The notes below the pieces were generated by a model. It did no database searches, was not told where the DNA came from, and saw only the letters and a list, made by a program, of their open reading frames with translations. Both the position numbers and the translations under genes were made by a program. Source: Prosthecobacter sp. (GTDB taxonomy: Bacteria > Verrucomicrobiota > Verrucomicrobiia > Verrucomicrobiales > Verrucomicrobiaceae). From it: DNA of 64,000 bases. Shown one piece after another: positions 1,105-55,436 of this stretch. Every line of letters starts with the position of its first letter. Position 1 is the first letter of the stretch. Location: the NCBI RefSeq assembly GCF_014879935.1, contig NZ_JACSRD010000123.1, forward strand, positions 1 through 64,000, given 5' to 3'.

Positions 1105-1992
1105 CTACCCGCCCATTCGCGACCGGTGCTCGCTGGGCCGCCAGCCGATCCACTTTTTGAAGGTGTTGCTGAAAACGAAGGGGTTCTGGTAGCCGATCTC
1201 GTGGGAGATGGTCTCGATCTTCAGATTCGTGGTCGAAAGCAGTTCGGCGGCCTTCCGCATGCGCAGCCAGGTGACGTGATGCATCGGCGTGCGGCCGAGC
1301 GTTTTGCGACACAAACGACGCAGGTGCTCGGCGCTGACGTGCGCCTGCCGTGCGAGCTCATCCAGCGTCCAGTCAAAGCCGACATTCGCGGCGACTTTTT
1401 CCCAGATGCGGTGCAGGCGGTCATCCACCTGCCAGGGCTGGGCGAAGCGCTCGATGTAATGCTGCACCAACTCGACCCAGTGAAACATGGCAGCCGGTTT
1501 GGCCTCGCCGCCGGACTCCTCGATCAGACCTTCAATGGCATTCCACAGGGCTTTGCCATCGAACGGTGCCATCAGCGGCGAACTGCTGCTCAGAATCGGC
1601 TTCTGCTCGGGCTGCTGCTCGTAGCGCACCCAGCAGCAGCGCCAGACCTTGCCAGGGACGGCCTGAAAGGCGTTCACCATGAAAGGGGGCAGCGCCACGG
1701 CCATGCCGGCGCCACATTTCTTCCACGCGCCATCCACGAGCACCCTGCCCTCCCCTTCCAGGCAGGCGAGGAAATACAGACCGCCCTGGTGCATGCGGAC
1801 GATGCGATAGGGGGCGCGGGCCGTCATGATGCCGGCGTGGGCGACACGATGGGTGCCGAGGGTGGCGCACACCGGGGCGCCACGCATCCAGGGGCGCGTG
1901 TCCTTCTCCGAGGCACGAACCACCCGGAAGGTCGTGTCCGGCCCGTGCGTGTGCGTTTCGGATAGCTCTTGGATGGCGGCTTTGGCGTGCAT
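1105..1992 (-). CDS. AraC-family transcriptional regulator
   Basis: A 295-residue regulator. The N-terminal half (about residues 20-160) reads as a cupin-like effector domain (GGLYFLACLEGEGRVLVDG). The C-terminal 100 residues contain the two helix-turn-helix motifs of the AraC/XylS family: WTLDELARQAHVSAEHLRRLCRK and the second helix pair ending GYQNPFVFSNTFKKWIGWRPSEHR. It is divergent from a PEP-hydrolase-family gene with a 108-bp gap, so it probably controls that gene and perhaps itself. The gap is almost entirely occupied by an inverted heptad repeat, which may hold its binding sites. The ligand is not predictable. Confidence 0.9.
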   Translation of the reverse strand: MHAKAAIQELSETHTHGPDTTFRVVRASEKDTRPWMRGAPVCATLGTHRVAHAGIMTARAPYRIVRMHQGGLYFLACLEGEGRVLVDGAWKKCGAGMAVALPPFMVNAFQAVPGKVWRCCWVRYEQQPEQKPILSSSSPLMAPFDGKALWNAIEGLIEESGGEAKPAAMFHWVELVQHYIERFAQPWQVDDRLHRIWEKVAANVGFDWTLDELARQAHVSAEHLRRLCRKTLGRTPMHHVTWLRMRKAAELLSTTNLKIETISHEIGYQNPFVFSNTFKKWIGWRPSEHRSRMGG

Positions 1993-2000
1993 GGCGGCAG

Positions 2001-2096
2001 GATTTATGATTTATGACTTACGATTTGTGATTTCAATCATGACCCGGGTCCTCGCGACGAGGCCAAATCATAAATCAGAAATCGTAAATCATAAAT
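2001..2096. repeat. Inverted pair of heptad tandem repeats (AAATCNN) in a divergent promoter
   Basis: The left arm (2001-2035) is five direct heptads: GATTTAT, GATTTAT, GACTTAC, GATTTGT, GATTTCA. The right arm (2065-2096) is the same motif reversed: AAATCAT, AAATCAG, AAATCGT, AAATCAT, then AAAT. The 29-bp spacer holds a small hairpin (CCTCG-cga-CGAGG) including CGCGACGA. Start codons lie 8 bp to the left (AraC) and 4 bp to the right (PEP-hydrolase family), so the element fills the whole intergenic region. The arms could pair over about 30 bp in RNA. Confidence 0.85.
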
Positions 2097-2100
2097 TCGT

Positions 2101-2958
2101 ATGCCCAATCCCTGGACCGGAATCGGAAACCCCTACACGAAGCAGGAAGTCGTCGATCGCCTCAAAGCCACGCTGGCTAAGGGTGAACCCATCATCGCCG
2201 CCGGAGCGGGCACGGGCATCAGCGCGAAGTTCATCGAAAAGGGCGGCGCGGACCTGATCATCATCTACAACAGCGGCCGCTACCGCATGATGGGCCATGG
2301 ATCGACCTGTGGCCTCATGGCGTATGGCGACGCGAACGCCGTGGCGATGGAAATCGGCGAATTTGAGGTGCTCCCCGTCGTGAAGGAGATCCCGGTGGTC
2401 TGCGGCGTGCACGCCACGGACCCACGCCGCCGCATGTGGCACTGGCTGCAGCAGGTGAAGAACATGGGTTTCAGCGGTGTGAACAACTTCCCCACGCACT
2501 GCATCGTGGACGGCCATTTCCGCGGCGTGCTGGAGGAGACCGGCATGAGCGTGAAGAAGGAATTCGAAATGGTGGGCCTGGCCACGAAGATGGACCTGTT
2601 CAGCATCGTGTATGTGGCCACACCGGAAGAGGCGGTGGAGATGGTGAAAAACGGCGCGGACGCCGTGATCGCCCACGTCGGCACCACGGTCGGCGGCAGC
2701 ATCGGCGTGGTGAACGCCGTGGTGGACTGGGACTTCACGATCAAGCGCACGCAGGAGATCATCGACGCGGCACGGAGCGTGAAAAAGGACGTCTTCACCC
2801 TCACCCATGGCGGGCCGGTGAACACGCCGAAGGATGTCGAGTTCGTGCTCAGCAAGACCACCGCCGACGGCTTCGTGGGCGCGTCCAGCCTGGAGCGCAT
2901 GGGGGTGGAGGACTCGCTGACCAATCTCACACGCGAATTTAAGGCTGTGCGACGTTGA
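2101..2958 (+). CDS. Phosphoenolpyruvate hydrolase family TIM-barrel protein
   Basis: A 285-residue cytosolic protein of the PEP_hydrolase/TIM-barrel signal-transduction family (PF09370), related to the PEP mutase/isocitrate lyase barrels and found as the C-terminal half of Tm-1-like proteins in other lineages. Typical segments are IIAAGAGTGISAKFIEKGGAD, IIIYNSGRYRMMGHGS, NFPTHCIVDGHFR and the C-terminal GFVGASSLERM. Length matches the family and the start matches the conserved N-terminus. There is no Shine-Dalgarno sequence; the ATG is 4 bp from an inverted heptad repeat, so an RNA hairpin could hide the start. The divergent AraC gene is the likely regulator. The reaction in this organism is unproven. 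Confidence 0.88.
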   Translation: MPNPWTGIGNPYTKQEVVDRLKATLAKGEPIIAAGAGTGISAKFIEKGGADLIIIYNSGRYRMMGHGSTCGLMAYGDANAVAMEIGEFEVLPVVKEIPVVCGVHATDPRRRMWHWLQQVKNMGFSGVNNFPTHCIVDGHFRGVLEETGMSVKKEFEMVGLATKMDLFSIVYVATPEEAVEMVKNGADAVIAHVGTTVGGSIGVVNAVVDWDFTIKRTQEIIDAARSVKKDVFTLTHGGPVNTPKDVEFVLSKTTADGFVGASSLERMGVEDSLTNLTREFKAVRR

Positions 2959-9379: not shown

Positions 9380-12300
9380 TCAGATGGAACGGCGGCGACG
9401 GCGGAAGAACAGCCCCAAGAGACCGAACATCAGAAGCAGCACACGAGAAGGCTCTGGGACGACCACCAAGATGCCGTAGGACTGGAAGAGGGCGGTGTTC
9501 CAGGCCAGAAGCGGGTCAAGAGAAGGCAACACAAGATCCCCAAGGACTCCGCCTGGACGATATTCACCACCAAGGTCAAACGAACCCAGTGTGACGGAAG
9601 ACCAGTCCATCAGCTTGAACACATCACCGTGGACGATCGTGGCACCGGAGTTGACAACTGCGATCGTGCTGCCGCTGGTGAGTGTGAGGCTGCCGGTGCC
9701 GTTGATGCGGTCATGAGAGCCAGTGCCGGACTCCCAGAGGGTGAGGTGCCCGTCGGTGTTGTCACCGAGCCATGCATCGAAGGTGTTGTTTCCGAGGCGG
9801 GTGGTGAACTCCGCGCTGGAGTTGGCGTCTGCGGCCAAGGTGGAGCCGAGCTGGAGTTCGAGGCGGGTAGCGCCGGAGGCGAGTGTGAGGTTCCCATTCA
9901 CGGTCAAAGTGCCGATCTGGTCACCAGCGTTCACCAGTACACCGCCGGTGCTGGCTCCAGGTTTGATGACACCAGTGGTATTGATGGCCCCCACGTTGCT
10001 GCCAATCGTGAGATCACCAGAGATCGCACCCGTTCCGGCAATCGTCGCGTCTGTGACATAGCCGCCGGGCGCTGCTCCGAAGGTGGCACCCGAATCGATC
10101 CGGACGAAGGAGGTGTCGTTGACCGACCCGCCAGCGCCAAGCTGCATGGTGCCTTCGGTGACGAGCGTGGACCCATGGTAGGTGTTTGCTCCGGTGAGTG
10201 TGACGGTTCCCGTCCCCGTCTTCTCGATGGAGAGGGTGTCATTGGCGGAATCAGCCTCGGAAATGACACCTGAGAAGGTGATGCCAGTCCCAGAACCGCT
10301 GGTGGCCGATGTCAGAGTGACCGTCTTGGTTTCGACGCCTGTGACGCCCGACTGCAGATTCTGAAGCACCACGTTCCCGCTGAAGGTCGAAGCACCTGAA
10401 GTCATGCCCTCATCACCCCCGATAGTGACACTGCCCGTGCCAGCAGTCGCGTTGACGTCGATCGCATTGGTCACATCCAGGGCGCCCGCCGTGACGACCA
10501 GGCCGACATTGTTGGTGACCAGTTCCTCCCGGAAGCGGACAGGATCCAGAACTGGCAGGCAGCACTCGTCGGCGTTGGTCTGCGTCATGAAGAAGAACTT
10601 CCCGGCGGCAGTGCCGTTCACGACAGCAAACTGGGTGCCGTAGGTCATCTCAGCCGGTGAATCGAACTCCGCATGACGGACGAGGCTCATCGTGCCACCG
10701 GAGACGCTGACGATGGTGTAGATACCGTTGCGAGTCGGATCTGCCTCCTCGTTCTTGACGAGGATGGTCTTGCCGACGTCACCAGCGACGTAGGTGTAGC
10801 CGTCCACAGTTGAAGACACGCCGGTGAACGAGCCAGACTGGGCACTGCCACCCGTGGCGTTGTAGGAACCGCCGGCAGATGCGATCCCCACGGTGGTGGC
10901 ACGATCGATGACAGTGGTCATCACGGTCCGGGTGTCACCCAGTTCGACATGCTTGGCTCCCAATGCGGAGCTGTGGCTGAGTTCAACCCGGCCGGAACGA
11001 ACAATCGTGCCGCCATCAATCAAAGCACCAGCCCCGGCACCAGCTCCGGTTCCGTAGTCATTGTTTCCGGACAGCAGAAGGTTGCCGCCGTCCACCATGG
11101 TGATGCGACCAGCGCCTGTCACCAAGCCAGCACCGCCGAGCGTCAATCCAGTGAGCGATTGCACGCCTACAAAGGTGTCTCTGTTGAGTGTGACATTCCC
11201 GCTGATGACGGAATCGAGCACCGTTGACTGGATGACGCTGACCCCTGCTGAGTTTGTGGCGTTCACAGTCACATCATTCGCAAGCGAGACTCCCTGGAGA
11301 TCCAACACGGTCATATCGTCAGCCTGCGTGGCAGACGCAATCCCCATGGTGATGGCCCCTGAGCCCAGCTTGGCGTCATTCGCCACGGACAACCTGCCAT
11401 TGGCGATCTCCGTGGACCAGGTCTGCGCCGAGTGATCGACAGTCGAGACAGTCTGTGCACCGTGGGTGCGCACCCGGAGCACTCCTGCCCCGTTGATCGC
11501 ACCTGCATACACAGCATCAGACGTGTCATCGCCACCTACCGTCAGCATTCCCGTGCCAAGCACAACACTGGCACTGCCCTGCGTCCCGCCCGTGCTCGCC
11601 AGAGAACCGACGGACTGATCGAAGCCGCCGAGATCCAGAGTACCCGAGGCCGTGTCCCCTGTGAGCACCACGCGGGACTGGGAGGACAGGGCGTTGGCCG
11701 CGCCACCCAGCAAGGTGCCGGCTGTGACATTGGTGTTGCCGGTGAGAGTGCTGCCTGATCCGGTGAATGAGAGGGTGCCCGTGTCCACTTTGGTAAGACT
11801 GCCTGCGCCGGTGATCGGAGAAGCGATGGTGAACGTGGTGCCTGCGGTCGTGGCGATTGTGCCACCGCCGGCATCCACGGAAACGCCGCTGCTTGCGCCC
11901 AAGGTGGTGCTGGAAGTAACTTCGAGCGCACCACCAAGGAACCGCAAGGCATTGGCACGAAACTCATTGGAGACGTAACCAAGGCTGGATGCCTGGGCGA
12001 TGGACAGCGTGCCACCTTCGAGTTCTGTGCCGCCGCGATGACTGTTCACAGCGGTGAAGACCAGTTTTCCAGCACCCTTCTTCCGGAACGTGACGTTGCC
12101 ATTGACCTGTCCGCCGTAAGTGGTGTCCGTCGCCTGGTTCACTGTCAGGGTGTTGTCCGCAAAGGCACCGTTGTTGACGGAGCCACCGTCACCCGCAAGA
12201 GCGGCCACCTCCTGGTTGTAGCCATTGAGGTCAAACATGCCGGTAAATTTGGTGGTCAATGTGCCGCCGACAGGGAGCACGTTGTTGGCCCCGATCTGAA

Positions 12301-38308: not shown

Positions 38309-39099
<791 letters not shown>

Positions 39100-39113
39100 G
39101 CACTTCATCAGTC

Positions 39114-48801: not shown

Positions 48802-49166
48802 TCAATCCCACACATATCGCTCGTCGAACTCGATGCCGTGTTTGGCGAGGAATTTGCGGTATTCTCTCCCTGGAAGGTCATTACGCGATGATGCTCGCGC
48901 TGGCGGCGGATGTAATCGCGCACGTCCTCGACGCCGGACTGGCTGACGGAGAAGGCCCCGTAACCGTTCTGCTAATGGAAATGGTGCAACTCAGGCCGTT
49001 GCTCCGGGAGCCAGAGGTTGGAGCCGGTTCTGAGCTGGCACACGACATCGCTCAACGTCTCCGTGCGTGAGGCGAGGAACAGGAGATGTGCGTGATCCGG
49101 TTCGGAGTTGATCTCGACCGCCGTGCAGCCGAGATCGCGCAGGATGCCGCCGAGCGATGGAGCAAC
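48802..49166 (-). pseudogene. REP-associated tyrosine transposase (IS200-like Y1), remnant
   Basis: Reading the minus strand, the fragment contains the HUH motif in NSEPDHAHLLFLAS and the catalytic-Tyr helix in VRDYIRRQREHH, both diagnostic of RAYT/IS200-like Y1 transposases. Further along FQGE, the frame shifts and ends YRKFLAKHGIEFDERYVWD. Lesions: the N-terminal third is missing (homology begins at 49166, directly against the neighbouring gene's stop), a TAG stop replaces a codon after LHHFH (probably Trp) near 48973, and a frameshift lies near 48868. It is clearly inactive. Confidence 0.85.
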
Positions 49167-49862: not shown

Positions 49863-51263
49863 TCAGACCGCCACGCCCGAATACCCGTGCCCGCTTGAGC
49901 AGAGACGGAAGAGGTGATTGCAGACTTCGTGGGCGGCGAGGGTGCCGGTGCGGGGGAGCTGGTCGAAGTCGCCAATGAGGACGGGCCAGTCGGCGCGGTC
50001 TTCGGGAACGCGGCCGTGGGAGCCTTTGACGAGCGTGGCGTCGAGCGGGATGACGTCCATGAGCATGCGCTGGCCGATGGCTTTCTTCGCGAGCTTGGTG
50101 GCGACTTTGAGCTTCGGCCACTTGATGTTGGGATCGAGGAAGAGCTCGGCGGGGTCGTAGCCGCATTTGCGGTGGATATCGACGCAGCGGGCAAAGTCGG
50201 GCGCTTTGCGGTCGTCCTGCCAGTAATAGTAAGTAAACCAGCTTTTGGCGTCGGCGATGGCGATGAGATCGCCGCTGCGCTCGTGATTGAGGCCGAAGAG
50301 GTGTTTTTCCATCTTGCCGAGCACCTGGGCGACGCCGGGCGTGGCCTCCAGAGCACCACGCACGTTGGCGAGGAGGCTTTGATCGTTCACATAGACGTGG
50401 GCGATCTGATGGTCGGCGATGGCGAAGACCTTGGAGCCGCCGAGGTCGAGTGTTTCGCGGCCGAGTTCGTCTTTGATGCTGAGCCAGCCGCGTTCGCGAA
50501 AGACGCGGTTCAGGTGGACGGGCTGTTCGACGTCGGTGATGCCGTATTCGGAGAGGAGGACGACCTTGATGTTACGCGTCTCGTAGAAGCGGATGAGATC
50601 GCCAACGACGTTGTCGATCTGGCGGAGGTCGAAACGGATTTTCTCCATGTCGAGGCCGACGCGCTGGAGATTGTAGTCGAGATGCGGCAGGTAAACGAGC
50701 GAGAGGCCGGGCCAGTGCTTTTCCTCGATCCATTTGGCACTCTCGGCGATCCAGATGGAGGATTTGATGTCGGAACCAGGGCCCCAGAAATGGCGGAAGG
50801 GAAACGGGCCGAGGTCCTTTTTGATGCGCTCCCGCAGCGGCATGGGCTGCGTGTGGATGTCGAACACCTTGCGACCATCGGCAGGATAAAGCGGTCGCGG
50901 CGTGATGGCGATGTCGGCGGTGGAATACATGTTGAACCACCAAAAGAGCTTCGCGCAGGTGAACTGCGGATCGACGCGGCGCAGCGCCTCCCAGAGTTTT
51001 TCGCCGTGCATGAGCTGCTCGGGTTGTTTCCAGAAGCGATGCTCGGCGTAATCGCGATCATACCAGCCGTTGGCGACGACGCCGTGGTCGCGCGGCAATC
51101 TGCCGGTCAGATAAGCGGCCTGGGCGGTGCAGGTGACGGCGGGAACGGCGGGCTCGATGAGCGCGGAACGATTACGCTCAACGAAAGCGCGGATGGCGGG
51201 TGTGTGCTCGCCAATGAGCCGGGAGGTGAGACCGACGACGTTCAGGATCGCTGTGCGCTGCAT
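49863..51263 (-). CDS. Alkaline-phosphatase-superfamily phosphodiesterase/nucleotide pyrophosphatase
   Basis: A 466-residue protein without a clear signal peptide. The nucleophile region PAVTCTAQAAYLTGRLPRDHGVVANGWYD matches type I phosphodiesterase/nucleotide pyrophosphatases, with Thr44 as probable nucleophile. Metal-site segments VYLPHLDYNLQRVG, VVLLSEYGITDVEQPVHLN and VKGSHGRVP follow at expected distances. Close relatives occur in the ebo cluster that exports metabolites in cyanobacteria, algae and several bacteria, but no other ebo gene is here. The substrate is unknown. A heptad inverted repeat fills the gap upstream. Confidence 0.85.
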   Translation of the reverse strand: MQRTAILNVVGLTSRLIGEHTPAIRAFVERNRSALIEPAVPAVTCTAQAAYLTGRLPRDHGVVANGWYDRDYAEHRFWKQPEQLMHGEKLWEALRRVDPQFTCAKLFWWFNMYSTADIAITPRPLYPADGRKVFDIHTQPMPLRERIKKDLGPFPFRHFWGPGSDIKSSIWIAESAKWIEEKHWPGLSLVYLPHLDYNLQRVGLDMEKIRFDLRQIDNVVGDLIRFYETRNIKVVLLSEYGITDVEQPVHLNRVFRERGWLSIKDELGRETLDLGGSKVFAIADHQIAHVYVNDQSLLANVRGALEATPGVAQVLGKMEKHLFGLNHERSGDLIAIADAKSWFTYYYWQDDRKAPDFARCVDIHRKCGYDPAELFLDPNIKWPKLKVATKLAKKAIGQRMLMDVIPLDATLVKGSHGRVPEDRADWPVLIGDFDQLPRTGTLAAHEVCNHLFRLCSSGHGYSGVAV

Positions 51264-51272
51264 GAAATCAGA

Positions 51273-51363
51273 GTTTCAAGTTTCGGGTTCAAAGTTTCAA
51301 CGTGTGACGAGGATGCATCGTCGCGCGGAAGCAACTTGAAACCTGAAACTTCAAGCTTGAAAC
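51273..51363. repeat. Inverted pair of heptad tandem repeats (TTGAAAC) between two genes
   Basis: Left arm (51273-51300): GTTTCAA, GTTTCGG, GTTCAAA, GTTTCAA. Right arm (51336-51363): TTGAAAC, CTGAAAC, TTCAAGC, TTGAAAC. Each arm is exactly four heptads, and the arms are reverse complements apart from scattered changes. The 35-bp loop contains TCGTCGCG (51318-51325), the complement of CGCGACGA in the loop at 2053-2060. It begins 9 bp upstream of the phosphodiesterase start and ends 4 bp before the DUF3307 stop codon. Confidence 0.88.
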
Positions 51364-51367
51364 CACC

Positions 51368-51751
51368 TCACCAGAGCATCGCCGCGATGACGTAGGCGAT
51401 CTTGCAGAGGTAATGCAGCGCCTGATCCTGATTGAAGGTGGTCAGGTTCTCACATTTGGCGAAGTCGATGATCCAATGAAGGACGAACTCGACCAAGGAG
51501 GTGATGAAACAGCCGGTGATGACCCACACCGCGACGGCATGGATCAAACAATGGGCCGTCATGCACCAGGGCCAGATGGACCGGGGCCGCGAGGGGTCCT
51601 GCAGCTTGTGGAGGAGGTGCCGGTTTTTGCAGGTCGAAAGGAACTCGCCCTGCAGGGGGTAATCCATCACCGCATGGCCTGCGAAGAGCAGGAAAAGTAC
51701 CTGGATGGCCTCGTAAGAGGTGGCGGGAGGGAATGGCAGCAGGCCGGACAT
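51368..51751 (-). CDS. DUF3307 membrane protein
   Basis: A 127-residue integral membrane protein. The start at 51751 (MSGLLPFPPATSYEAIQ) is chosen over an upstream frame that overlaps the cyclic-nucleotide-binding gene. DUF3307 marks are LLFAGHAVMDYPLQGEFLS, the AHCLIHAVAVWVI segment and the end FVLHWIIDFAKCENLTTFNQDQALHYLCKIAYV. About four hydrophobic segments. The conserved His and Asp residues in the membrane suggest an enzyme or metal site, but the function is not known. It follows the cyclic-nucleotide-binding gene by 82 bp. Confidence 0.85.
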   Translation of the reverse strand: MSGLLPFPPATSYEAIQVLFLLFAGHAVMDYPLQGEFLSTCKNRHLLHKLQDPSRPRSIWPWCMTAHCLIHAVAVWVITGCFITSLVEFVLHWIIDFAKCENLTTFNQDQALHYLCKIAYVIAAMLW

Positions 51752-51833
51752 GCGGGAGGTTTCGGCGCGAACAAAGGGCCGTTGCAGACGCACTGAAGCA
51801 CGCACCGGGCCGGATTGCCACGTTGCAGAGAAA

Positions 51834-52289
51834 TTAAGCGCTGTAGAAGGCGGCGATCTTCTCATTCACCGCACGGAGGCGATGCGCGATGGTGCGACCG
51901 ACACCAATGAGCAGCCAGGCGGCGGCACGCGGGTACTCGTTGATGTAGCCTTCGAGGCTGTCGCCATCGATGCGCCAGACCTGGGAGAATTCGACAGCGG
52001 TGACCGTGGCGCTGGCCACGTTCGGGTCGAGGAGGTTGATCTCGCCCACCGTTTCACCGCGCTGGATGGAGCCGAGGAGGACCTTGTGCCCGCCGCGCAT
52101 GGCCGTGGCGTGGAATTTGCCGGAGACGACAAAGAAGAGGCTGTTCTGCTGCTGACCTTCCTCAATGAGGTGCTGGCCGGGCTGGACAGGCAGGAATTCG
52201 CCGTATCCGCTGAGGATGTCGCGATCCTCATCGCCGAGGGGTTCGAGGATGCCTTGGGCAGGGAGCTTGGGAGTTGAGAGGTCGCTCAT
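51834..52289 (-). CDS. Cyclic-nucleotide-binding-domain protein without DNA-binding domain
   Basis: A 151-residue protein that is one cNMP-binding domain: LSGYGEFLPVQPGQHLIEEGQQQNSLFFVVSGKF at about 20-55, the phosphate-binding-cassette region RGETVGEINLLDPNVASATVTAVEFSQVWRI, and a C-terminal helix. The consensus G-E-x-A of cAMP binders appears as GEINL, with no Arg at the usual place (NVASATV), so it may bind another nucleotide or none. There is no helix-turn-helix, so it is a sensor or regulatory subunit, not a Crp-type regulator. The ATG at 52289 fits the family start. Confidence 0.85.
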   Translation of the reverse strand: MSDLSTPKLPAQGILEPLGDEDRDILSGYGEFLPVQPGQHLIEEGQQQNSLFFVVSGKFHATAMRGGHKVLLGSIQRGETVGEINLLDPNVASATVTAVEFSQVWRIDGDSLEGYINEYPRAAAWLLIGVGRTIAHRLRAVNEKIAAFYSA

Positions 52290-55387: not shown

Positions 55388-55402
55388 GCACTTCCCGCCA
55401 AC

Positions 55403-55433
55403 AACCGAGAACCGAGAACCGAGAACTGCGAAC
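55403..55433. repeat. AACCGAG heptad array between convergent genes
   Basis: Three identical heptads AACCGAG, then AACTGCG and AAC, all in phase. It begins 15 bp after a terminator and ends 3 bp before the YkvA gene's stop codon. AACCGAG and AACTGCG words also build the array at the end of znuC (39073-39100), 16 kb away. Confidence 0.8.
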
Positions 55434-55436
55434 AAG

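Follow-up and report, generated by a model that had tools for sequence, protein, structure and literature searches.

Two inverted heptad elements and their setting

The window, which is the whole 64,000-nucleotide stretch of DNA analysed here, carries at positions 51273-51363 an element in which a 35-nt loop separates four GTTTCAA-type heptads from four heptads of the TTGAAAC type. It occupies the gap between two minus-strand genes. A sister element made of other heptads is located between two divergent genes, and two more arrays are present in the window. The features are as follows.

1105..1992, minus strand: AraC-type regulator, start adjacent to the left end of the sister element
2001..2096, no strand: sister element of ATTTATG/AAATCAT heptads, flanked by divergent genes
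2101..2958, plus strand: PEP-hydrolase-like gene, start adjacent to the right end of the sister element
39073..39104, plus strand: weak heptad array, AACNNNG type
49863..51263, minus strand: type I phosphodiesterase / nucleotide pyrophosphatase family gene (PF01663), start codon just after the element
51264..51367, no strand: intergenic gap occupied by the element, flanked by two minus-strand genes
51273..51300, minus strand: left arm, four GTTTCAA-type heptads (GTTTCAA GTTTCGG GTTCAAA GTTTCAA)
51301..51335, no strand: loop, 35 nt, contains TCGTCGCG
51336..51363, plus strand: right arm, four TTGAAAC-type heptads (TTGAAAC CTGAAAC TTCAAGC TTGAAAC)
51368..51865, minus strand: DUF3307 gene, end just before the element
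55394..55436, plus strand: lone heptad array (AACCGAG x 3.4) between genes roughly called as convergent, outside the set of inverted elements

The arrangement of four heptads, 35-nt loop and four reverse heptads at 51273-51363 had been described in a first-pass annotation and is exact on the sequence. In straight register the arms are complementary at 21 of 28 positions; the middle two heptads of each arm are not mirror images. Compared with 200 dinucleotide shuffles, the region 51260-51380 folds with a z of −4.5 on the plus strand and −1.7 on the minus strand, and the region of the sister element (1990-2105) folds strongly on both strands. No Rfam matches were found in the window.

The annotation had also reported a loop 8-mer present in both elements in opposite orientation, which is confirmed (TCGTCGCG at 51318-51325 and CGCGACGA at 2053-2060). 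Its suggestion that this 8-mer is the conserved core of a class did not hold when loops were compared: CGCGACGA is present in two of the 19 loops of the same genome and in 7/24 and 2/31 rows at the orthologous sites, with own and duplicate rows counted. Random windows of 31 and 36 nt have some 8-mer in common in 717 of 20,000 draws (3.6%).

Two other features were observed in the window. A Y1 transposase match (PF01797) with an internal TAG is located at 48900-49157 on the minus strand, approximately 2 kb from the 51273-51363 element. Between about 12000 and 32000 there are imperfect repeats spaced near 12.57 kb, which perhaps belong to very long repeat-rich genes.

Number, period and context of the elements in the genome

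A scan for paired heptad arrays, as proposed in the first-pass annotation, covered 1,399,170 bp of the genome and identified 19 inverted heptad elements; each of five local shuffles contained none. Inverted heptad elements at this density are thus not due to chance, and the annotation's reservation that base composition might account for them does not apply. Seven is the preferred period at a threshold of 16 matches in 21: 44 period-7 arrays were found in 999,170 bp, compared with 0-4 arrays each for periods 4, 5, 8, 10, 11, 13, 16, 17, 19, 20 and 22, 16-27 for the codon periods 6, 9, 12, 15, 18 and 21, and 26 for period 14, which is twice seven. This preference depends on the threshold, since at the laxer 15/21 the codon periods outnumber period 7 (for example, 118 arrays of period 6 vs 55). 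Altogether, 59 period-7 arrays are present in the 1,399,170 bp. An inverted partner within 110 bp was found for 26 of them, a solely direct partner for none and no partner for 33; shuffled flanks provided no inverted partners. Loop length, which the annotation had found to agree in its two elements, is not a fixed property of the class: in a set of 31 elements it ranges from 4 to 60 nt.

Many heptad words coexist in this genome, and a weight matrix fitted to the 44 arrays gave the loose unit grammar RRRYNNN. Neighbouring units differ at four steadier positions with a mismatch of 0.08-0.16 and at three variable ones with 0.32-0.38. The words GAATGAC, GAACNNN and TTGAAAC recur across many loci of one genome, and some long perfect heptad arrays are also present. 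In the genome studied here the pattern GARYNNN x3 GARY occurs at 251 places (overlapping) vs 15 for the reversed control. At least one place was found in 58 of 59 genomes of the family and in 98 of 145 genomes of a phylum sample; the control is not clean, as it outnumbers the pattern in five of the 59 family genomes (G002, G008, G013, G022 and G024) and in 22 of the 145 phylum genomes.

Gene context was determined with a home-made gene caller, which places starts only roughly. Called gaps contain 36 of the 56 arrays that could be placed (three at stretch ends were excluded), and approximately 13% of the sequence is located outside called genes. The 20 of 59 arrays inside called open reading frames include some that reflect gene-start errors. 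Intergenic arrays are distributed 21:8:7 over codirectional, divergent and convergent gaps, and gap length predicts 56:27:17%. A terminator or promoter role was considered and rejected, with no clear context bias and no Rfam match in the window; the elements also differ from intrinsic terminators and known RNA families in having no clear bias towards gene ends. The loops of the 19 elements are unrelated. Any common 8-mer was found in two of 171 loop pairs, one of which is the pair of 51273-51363 and 2001-2096, and a family of whole elements with a common loop was not found among these loops.

Other repeats were noted along the way. The stretch L004:6997-7966 has two copies of a different inverted element, with TTTGGTAGAAAGATTAG arms, approximately 0.9 kb apart. 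At L003:9753-10648 a Y1 match (10309-10551) is located between palindromes of the form GGCGACGA.TCGTCGCC. This repeat of the genome is REP-like, and the 51273-51363 loop looks by eye like a decayed copy of it. In viral contigs two exact array patterns were found in 12 and 22 stretches.

Orthologous sites and elements inside genes

The genus is probably Prosthecobacter, to judge from locus L151 (Prosthecobacter sp., 95% identity); the labels of other close loci are broader or odd, Akkermansia in one case. At the start of the phosphodiesterase gene, 22 of 30 loci of the genus (own locus included) have an inverted period-7 element and eight do not; the count requires an arm periodicity 7 of at least 0.6, and two of the 22 pair weakly. 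The words at this site are GTTTCAA, GTTAAAA, GTTCNNN or TTCAGTG. Eleven further named loci comprise six that duplicate genus loci and have the element and five without it. At the start of the PEP-hydrolase gene, 7/30 loci have heptads (GATTTAT, GATTCCT), 18/30 have ten-base units (AACCACCGTC, AACAACCGCA; periodicity 0.55 or more) and 5/30 have none or too weak a signal. The switch between heptads and tens does not track the identity of the flanking protein (91-98% for heptads, 89-97% for tens). In one locus (L100) an assembly gap lies within the loop. Unit length in relatives is therefore not always seven; units of 8, 10 and 11 bases also occur, the latter in inverted arrays of the ACGCTGATNNG type at L237:6263-6337 and L233:13063-13146.

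Arrays are also found inside conserved genes, namely those for leucyl-tRNA synthetase (LeuRS), a UvrA-like protein and a protein kinase; the kinase insert (L052) is without a clean empty ortholog. The LeuRS gene is filled at one codon position in 8 of 42 genomes and not filled there in the other 34; one further row, the second copy of G040, is left out of this count. The fillings are 81-114 nt long and all in frame, and seven of the eight contain inverted arrays; no inverted array was found in the filling of G039. Their words are GTTCTCA in the genome studied here, GTTTCAA in G047 and G063 and AGTGCTC in G040, and those of G030, G029 and G050 are AGACAATC octads. The inserts of our genome, G047 and G063 are of equal length (84 nt) and alike by eye in heptad phase, and the word of the first differs from that of the other two. 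The 22 empty rows listed have WMGGGKPGGVDLY with small changes. Flanking changes common to the filled genes (YWMTG, with R mostly in place of K) suggest a single origin or exchange of the segment. The filled genes are located at seven places of the LeuRS tree, each next to empty relatives, although some nodes are weak. Scatter and common flanks together point to frequent gain, loss or exchange, in addition to change of the word.

Other splits in the LeuRS alignment (at about amino acids 173, 280, 309 and 400-420) contained no periodic inverted array and were interpreted as variable regions of the ordinary kind. A genome-wide family built on the LeuRS octad word was considered and rejected, with few copies in 9 of 48 genomes. 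In one assembly a LeuRS contig has the octad insert (G053:C227:12593-12624) and seemingly another one does not (L291), which could be a strain mixture or two alleles.

The two arms of an insert match within a genome. For the seven distinct LeuRS inserts, untrimmed halves match with 15.6 within vs 7.0 between genomes, and among the 5040 possible pairings of halves only the true one reaches the observed match. For the intergenic sites, fixed 50-nt halves selected by periodicity alone were compared. The match was 18.5 with the own vs 16.5 with a foreign arm at the phosphodiesterase site (n = 15; 23/5000 permutations, p 0.005), 20.9 vs 17.7 for the heptads of the PEP site (n = 7; 215/5000, p 0.04) and 18.4 vs 16.7 for the tens of the same site (n = 12; 256/5000, p 0.05). 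The three tests combined give a p of 0.0008. The best-matching arm is the own one in 2/15, 2/7 and 1/12 rows, respectively. Arms at intergenic sites thus match within species to a modest degree, and the power of this test is low because the words at these sites are much alike across species. An earlier version with trimmed arms, in which the own-arm score exceeded the foreign one in 207/306 and 368/462 cells (permutation p 0, 0.002 and 0; 5000 each), was rejected as biased, since cutting the arms to the best inverted repeat of each species favours the own pair. Unit-by-unit mirroring was 17.5 vs 14.9 for permuted unit order (n = 27, elements with fewer than three units dropped), and six of the 27 elements reached p ≤ 0.05.

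The class is accordingly wider than the annotation had supposed, as it includes orthologous sites, ten-base units and in-frame elements inside genes. The view that it is one class with a free word and with phase and pairing kept stands as far as unit length and pairing are largely kept and words differ at orthologous places; it has to be amended in that the word mostly follows RRRYNNN and units of 8, 10 and 11 bases occur.

Relation to known repeats and possible origin

The heptanucleotide repeats of cyanobacteria are known as STRR. Published excerpts report three heptanucleotides from the cyanobacterium Calothrix (cited in PMC4692102) and further heptamer repeats, GGGAATC of Xanthomonas and TAACTGA of Beggiatoaceae (PMC4679880, PMC4692102); for the Xanthomonas repeats, inverted pairs are noted (PMC4692102). 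The arrays described here resemble these repeats in their seven-base tandem units, their many loci and their mainly intergenic location (59 arrays in 1.40 Mb). They differ from the reported cases, which read as one or few fixed words per genome, in the many words used, in degenerate units within an array, in variation of word and unit length at orthologous sites and in lying within conserved genes. In 25 cyanobacterial loci around phosphodiesterase homologs (104,852 bp) we found 15 period-7 arrays and at most four for other periods from 4 to 13. One of these loci (L208) contains a heptad element whose inverted arms are 44 nt long; inverted arrays are also present in L195 and L213, with 8-base units, and in L197, with 10-base units.

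Rickettsia palindromic elements (RPEs) of the groups RPE-4, -6 and -7 are 84-192 bp long and located inside old genes including one for a tRNA synthetase, according to the excerpt available of PMC3767692. According to the same source, orthologs have elements from different RPE groups at a given locus or close to it, which is explained there by a hotspot or by divergence from one insertion. By description, the elements studied here are like RPEs in being palindromic, in frame inside genes and absent from some orthologs (8/42 filled in LeuRS), and unlike them in their tandem heptads, of which that excerpt makes no mention for RPEs. REPINs, or REP doublets, are hairpin-forming pairs of short inverted repeats separated by a variable spacer (PMC3116915, in part). 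They have the inverted doublet with spacer in common with our elements, the arms of which are periodic arrays instead. The type had been called undescribed, which is partly true: heptamer arrays of cyanobacteria, Xanthomonas and Beggiatoaceae and the palindromic elements of Rickettsia are in print, and the excerpts of open-access literature covered (PMC4679880, PMC4692102, PMC3116915, PMC3733652, PMC5088731, PMC4060949, PMC3767692) gave no description of degenerate inverted heptad arrays in Verrucomicrobiota. The best reading is that the elements are palindromic, akin to those of Rickettsia, and built from heptamer repeats of the cyanobacterial kind.

How such elements are kept is best explained, tentatively and with slightly less than even confidence, by a palindromic hairpin whose arms are kept alike by copying each other, while slippage of units keeps the period and the word turns over. 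An element with about four seven-base units in each of its two inverted arrays, on either side of an unrelated spacer, would enter or arise at permissive places such as intergenic gaps and protein loops, and could persist at one place across a genus. A stalled polymerase would most likely switch template within the folded-back strand, so that one arm is copied from the other, and slippage by whole units would keep the period. A change in one unit could then spread along its arm and across to the opposite arm, so that the word would turn over while period and pairing stay. The unit length might reflect the DNA stretch held by the polymerase, a proposal published for heptamers (PMC4679880 and PMC4692102, as excerpted). 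We infer both the copying and that the host needs no function from the elements; the genome-wide period-7 class, word differences at orthologous sites, arms that match within a genome, the lack of a gap-context bias, the unrelated loops of this genome and mirroring slightly beyond the common word are consistent with this reading. The modest arm match at the intergenic sites and the small number of elements with significant mirroring (6/27) count against it. Two observations call for more than drift in place: one insertion does not account for the scatter on the LeuRS tree without losses or allele exchange, and drift alone would not predict the recurrence of words across many loci within a genome. 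A broader version, in which a pan-bacterial class of self-templating hairpins is defined by architecture and not by sequence, with units of 7 (also 8, 10 and 11) and with words and at times unit length rewritten in place across a genus by hairpin-directed copying, seems doubtful to us.

These recurring words would be expected if the elements were non-autonomous REPIN- or REP-like palindromes, mobilised by a transposase, Y1 (HUH) or another, that recognises the heptads of the arms, with the words as families and the filled sites as separate insertions. Such an origin is possible, though rather unlikely. The genome has 27 Y1 transposase matches, 26 of them above the Pfam cut-off; the variable spacer of the inverted doublets recalls REPINs (PMC3116915, in part), and the LeuRS fillings are scattered on the tree with arms matching inside each insert. 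Separate insertions of ready-made palindromes would equally yield matching LeuRS arms. However, inverted heptad elements flank none of the nine Y1 genes examined. The arrays closest to these genes are a lone array at approximately 0.7 kb (L346) and the LeuRS element at approximately 1.4 kb (L003), and one Y1 gene is flanked by another palindrome, the GGCGACGA.TCGTCGCC repeat at L003:9753-10648. In addition, the elements of this genome have no loops in common, and the LeuRS inserts of our genome, G047 and G063 hold length and phase despite their different words.

Pairing might instead be kept by selection through compensatory change, with the element acting as an mRNA leader hairpin or as a cruciform read by a factor. 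Arms that match within species, elements that fill gaps right up to start codons and the strong folds (one strand of 51260-51380, both strands of 1990-2105) would fit such a structure. We consider it improbable, as the elements occur in all three gap contexts without clear bias and also in coding regions, 8/30 orthologous loci are without a period-7 element, the window has no Rfam match and the minus strand of 51260-51380, on which both flanking genes are encoded, folds only slightly better than shuffles (z −1.7). Ordinary heptanucleotide repeats arising by polymerase slippage, inverted in pairs by chance, would account for the 33/59 arrays without inverted partner and for the long perfect arrays; heptamers are over-represented or commonest among the longer simple repeats of many bacterial genomes, as excerpts citing a 2007 survey state (PMC4679880, PMC4692102). 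Plain slippage is nevertheless disfavoured and very improbable, as 26/59 arrays have inverted partners and none a direct one only, 19 inverted elements contrast with none in shuffles, and the LeuRS arms match.

Verrucomicrobiota would be a second lineage of bacteria, next to Rickettsia, whose essential proteins, for example LeuRS, gain peptides from palindromic elements. If arms indeed copy each other within a hairpin, mutation itself rather than selection would maintain many of the small hairpins between genes in Verrucomicrobiota and cyanobacteria, and matching changes in the arms of a hairpin could not be taken to prove that the RNA has a function. A series of orthologous words at one place would then make it possible to test why the unit has seven bases.
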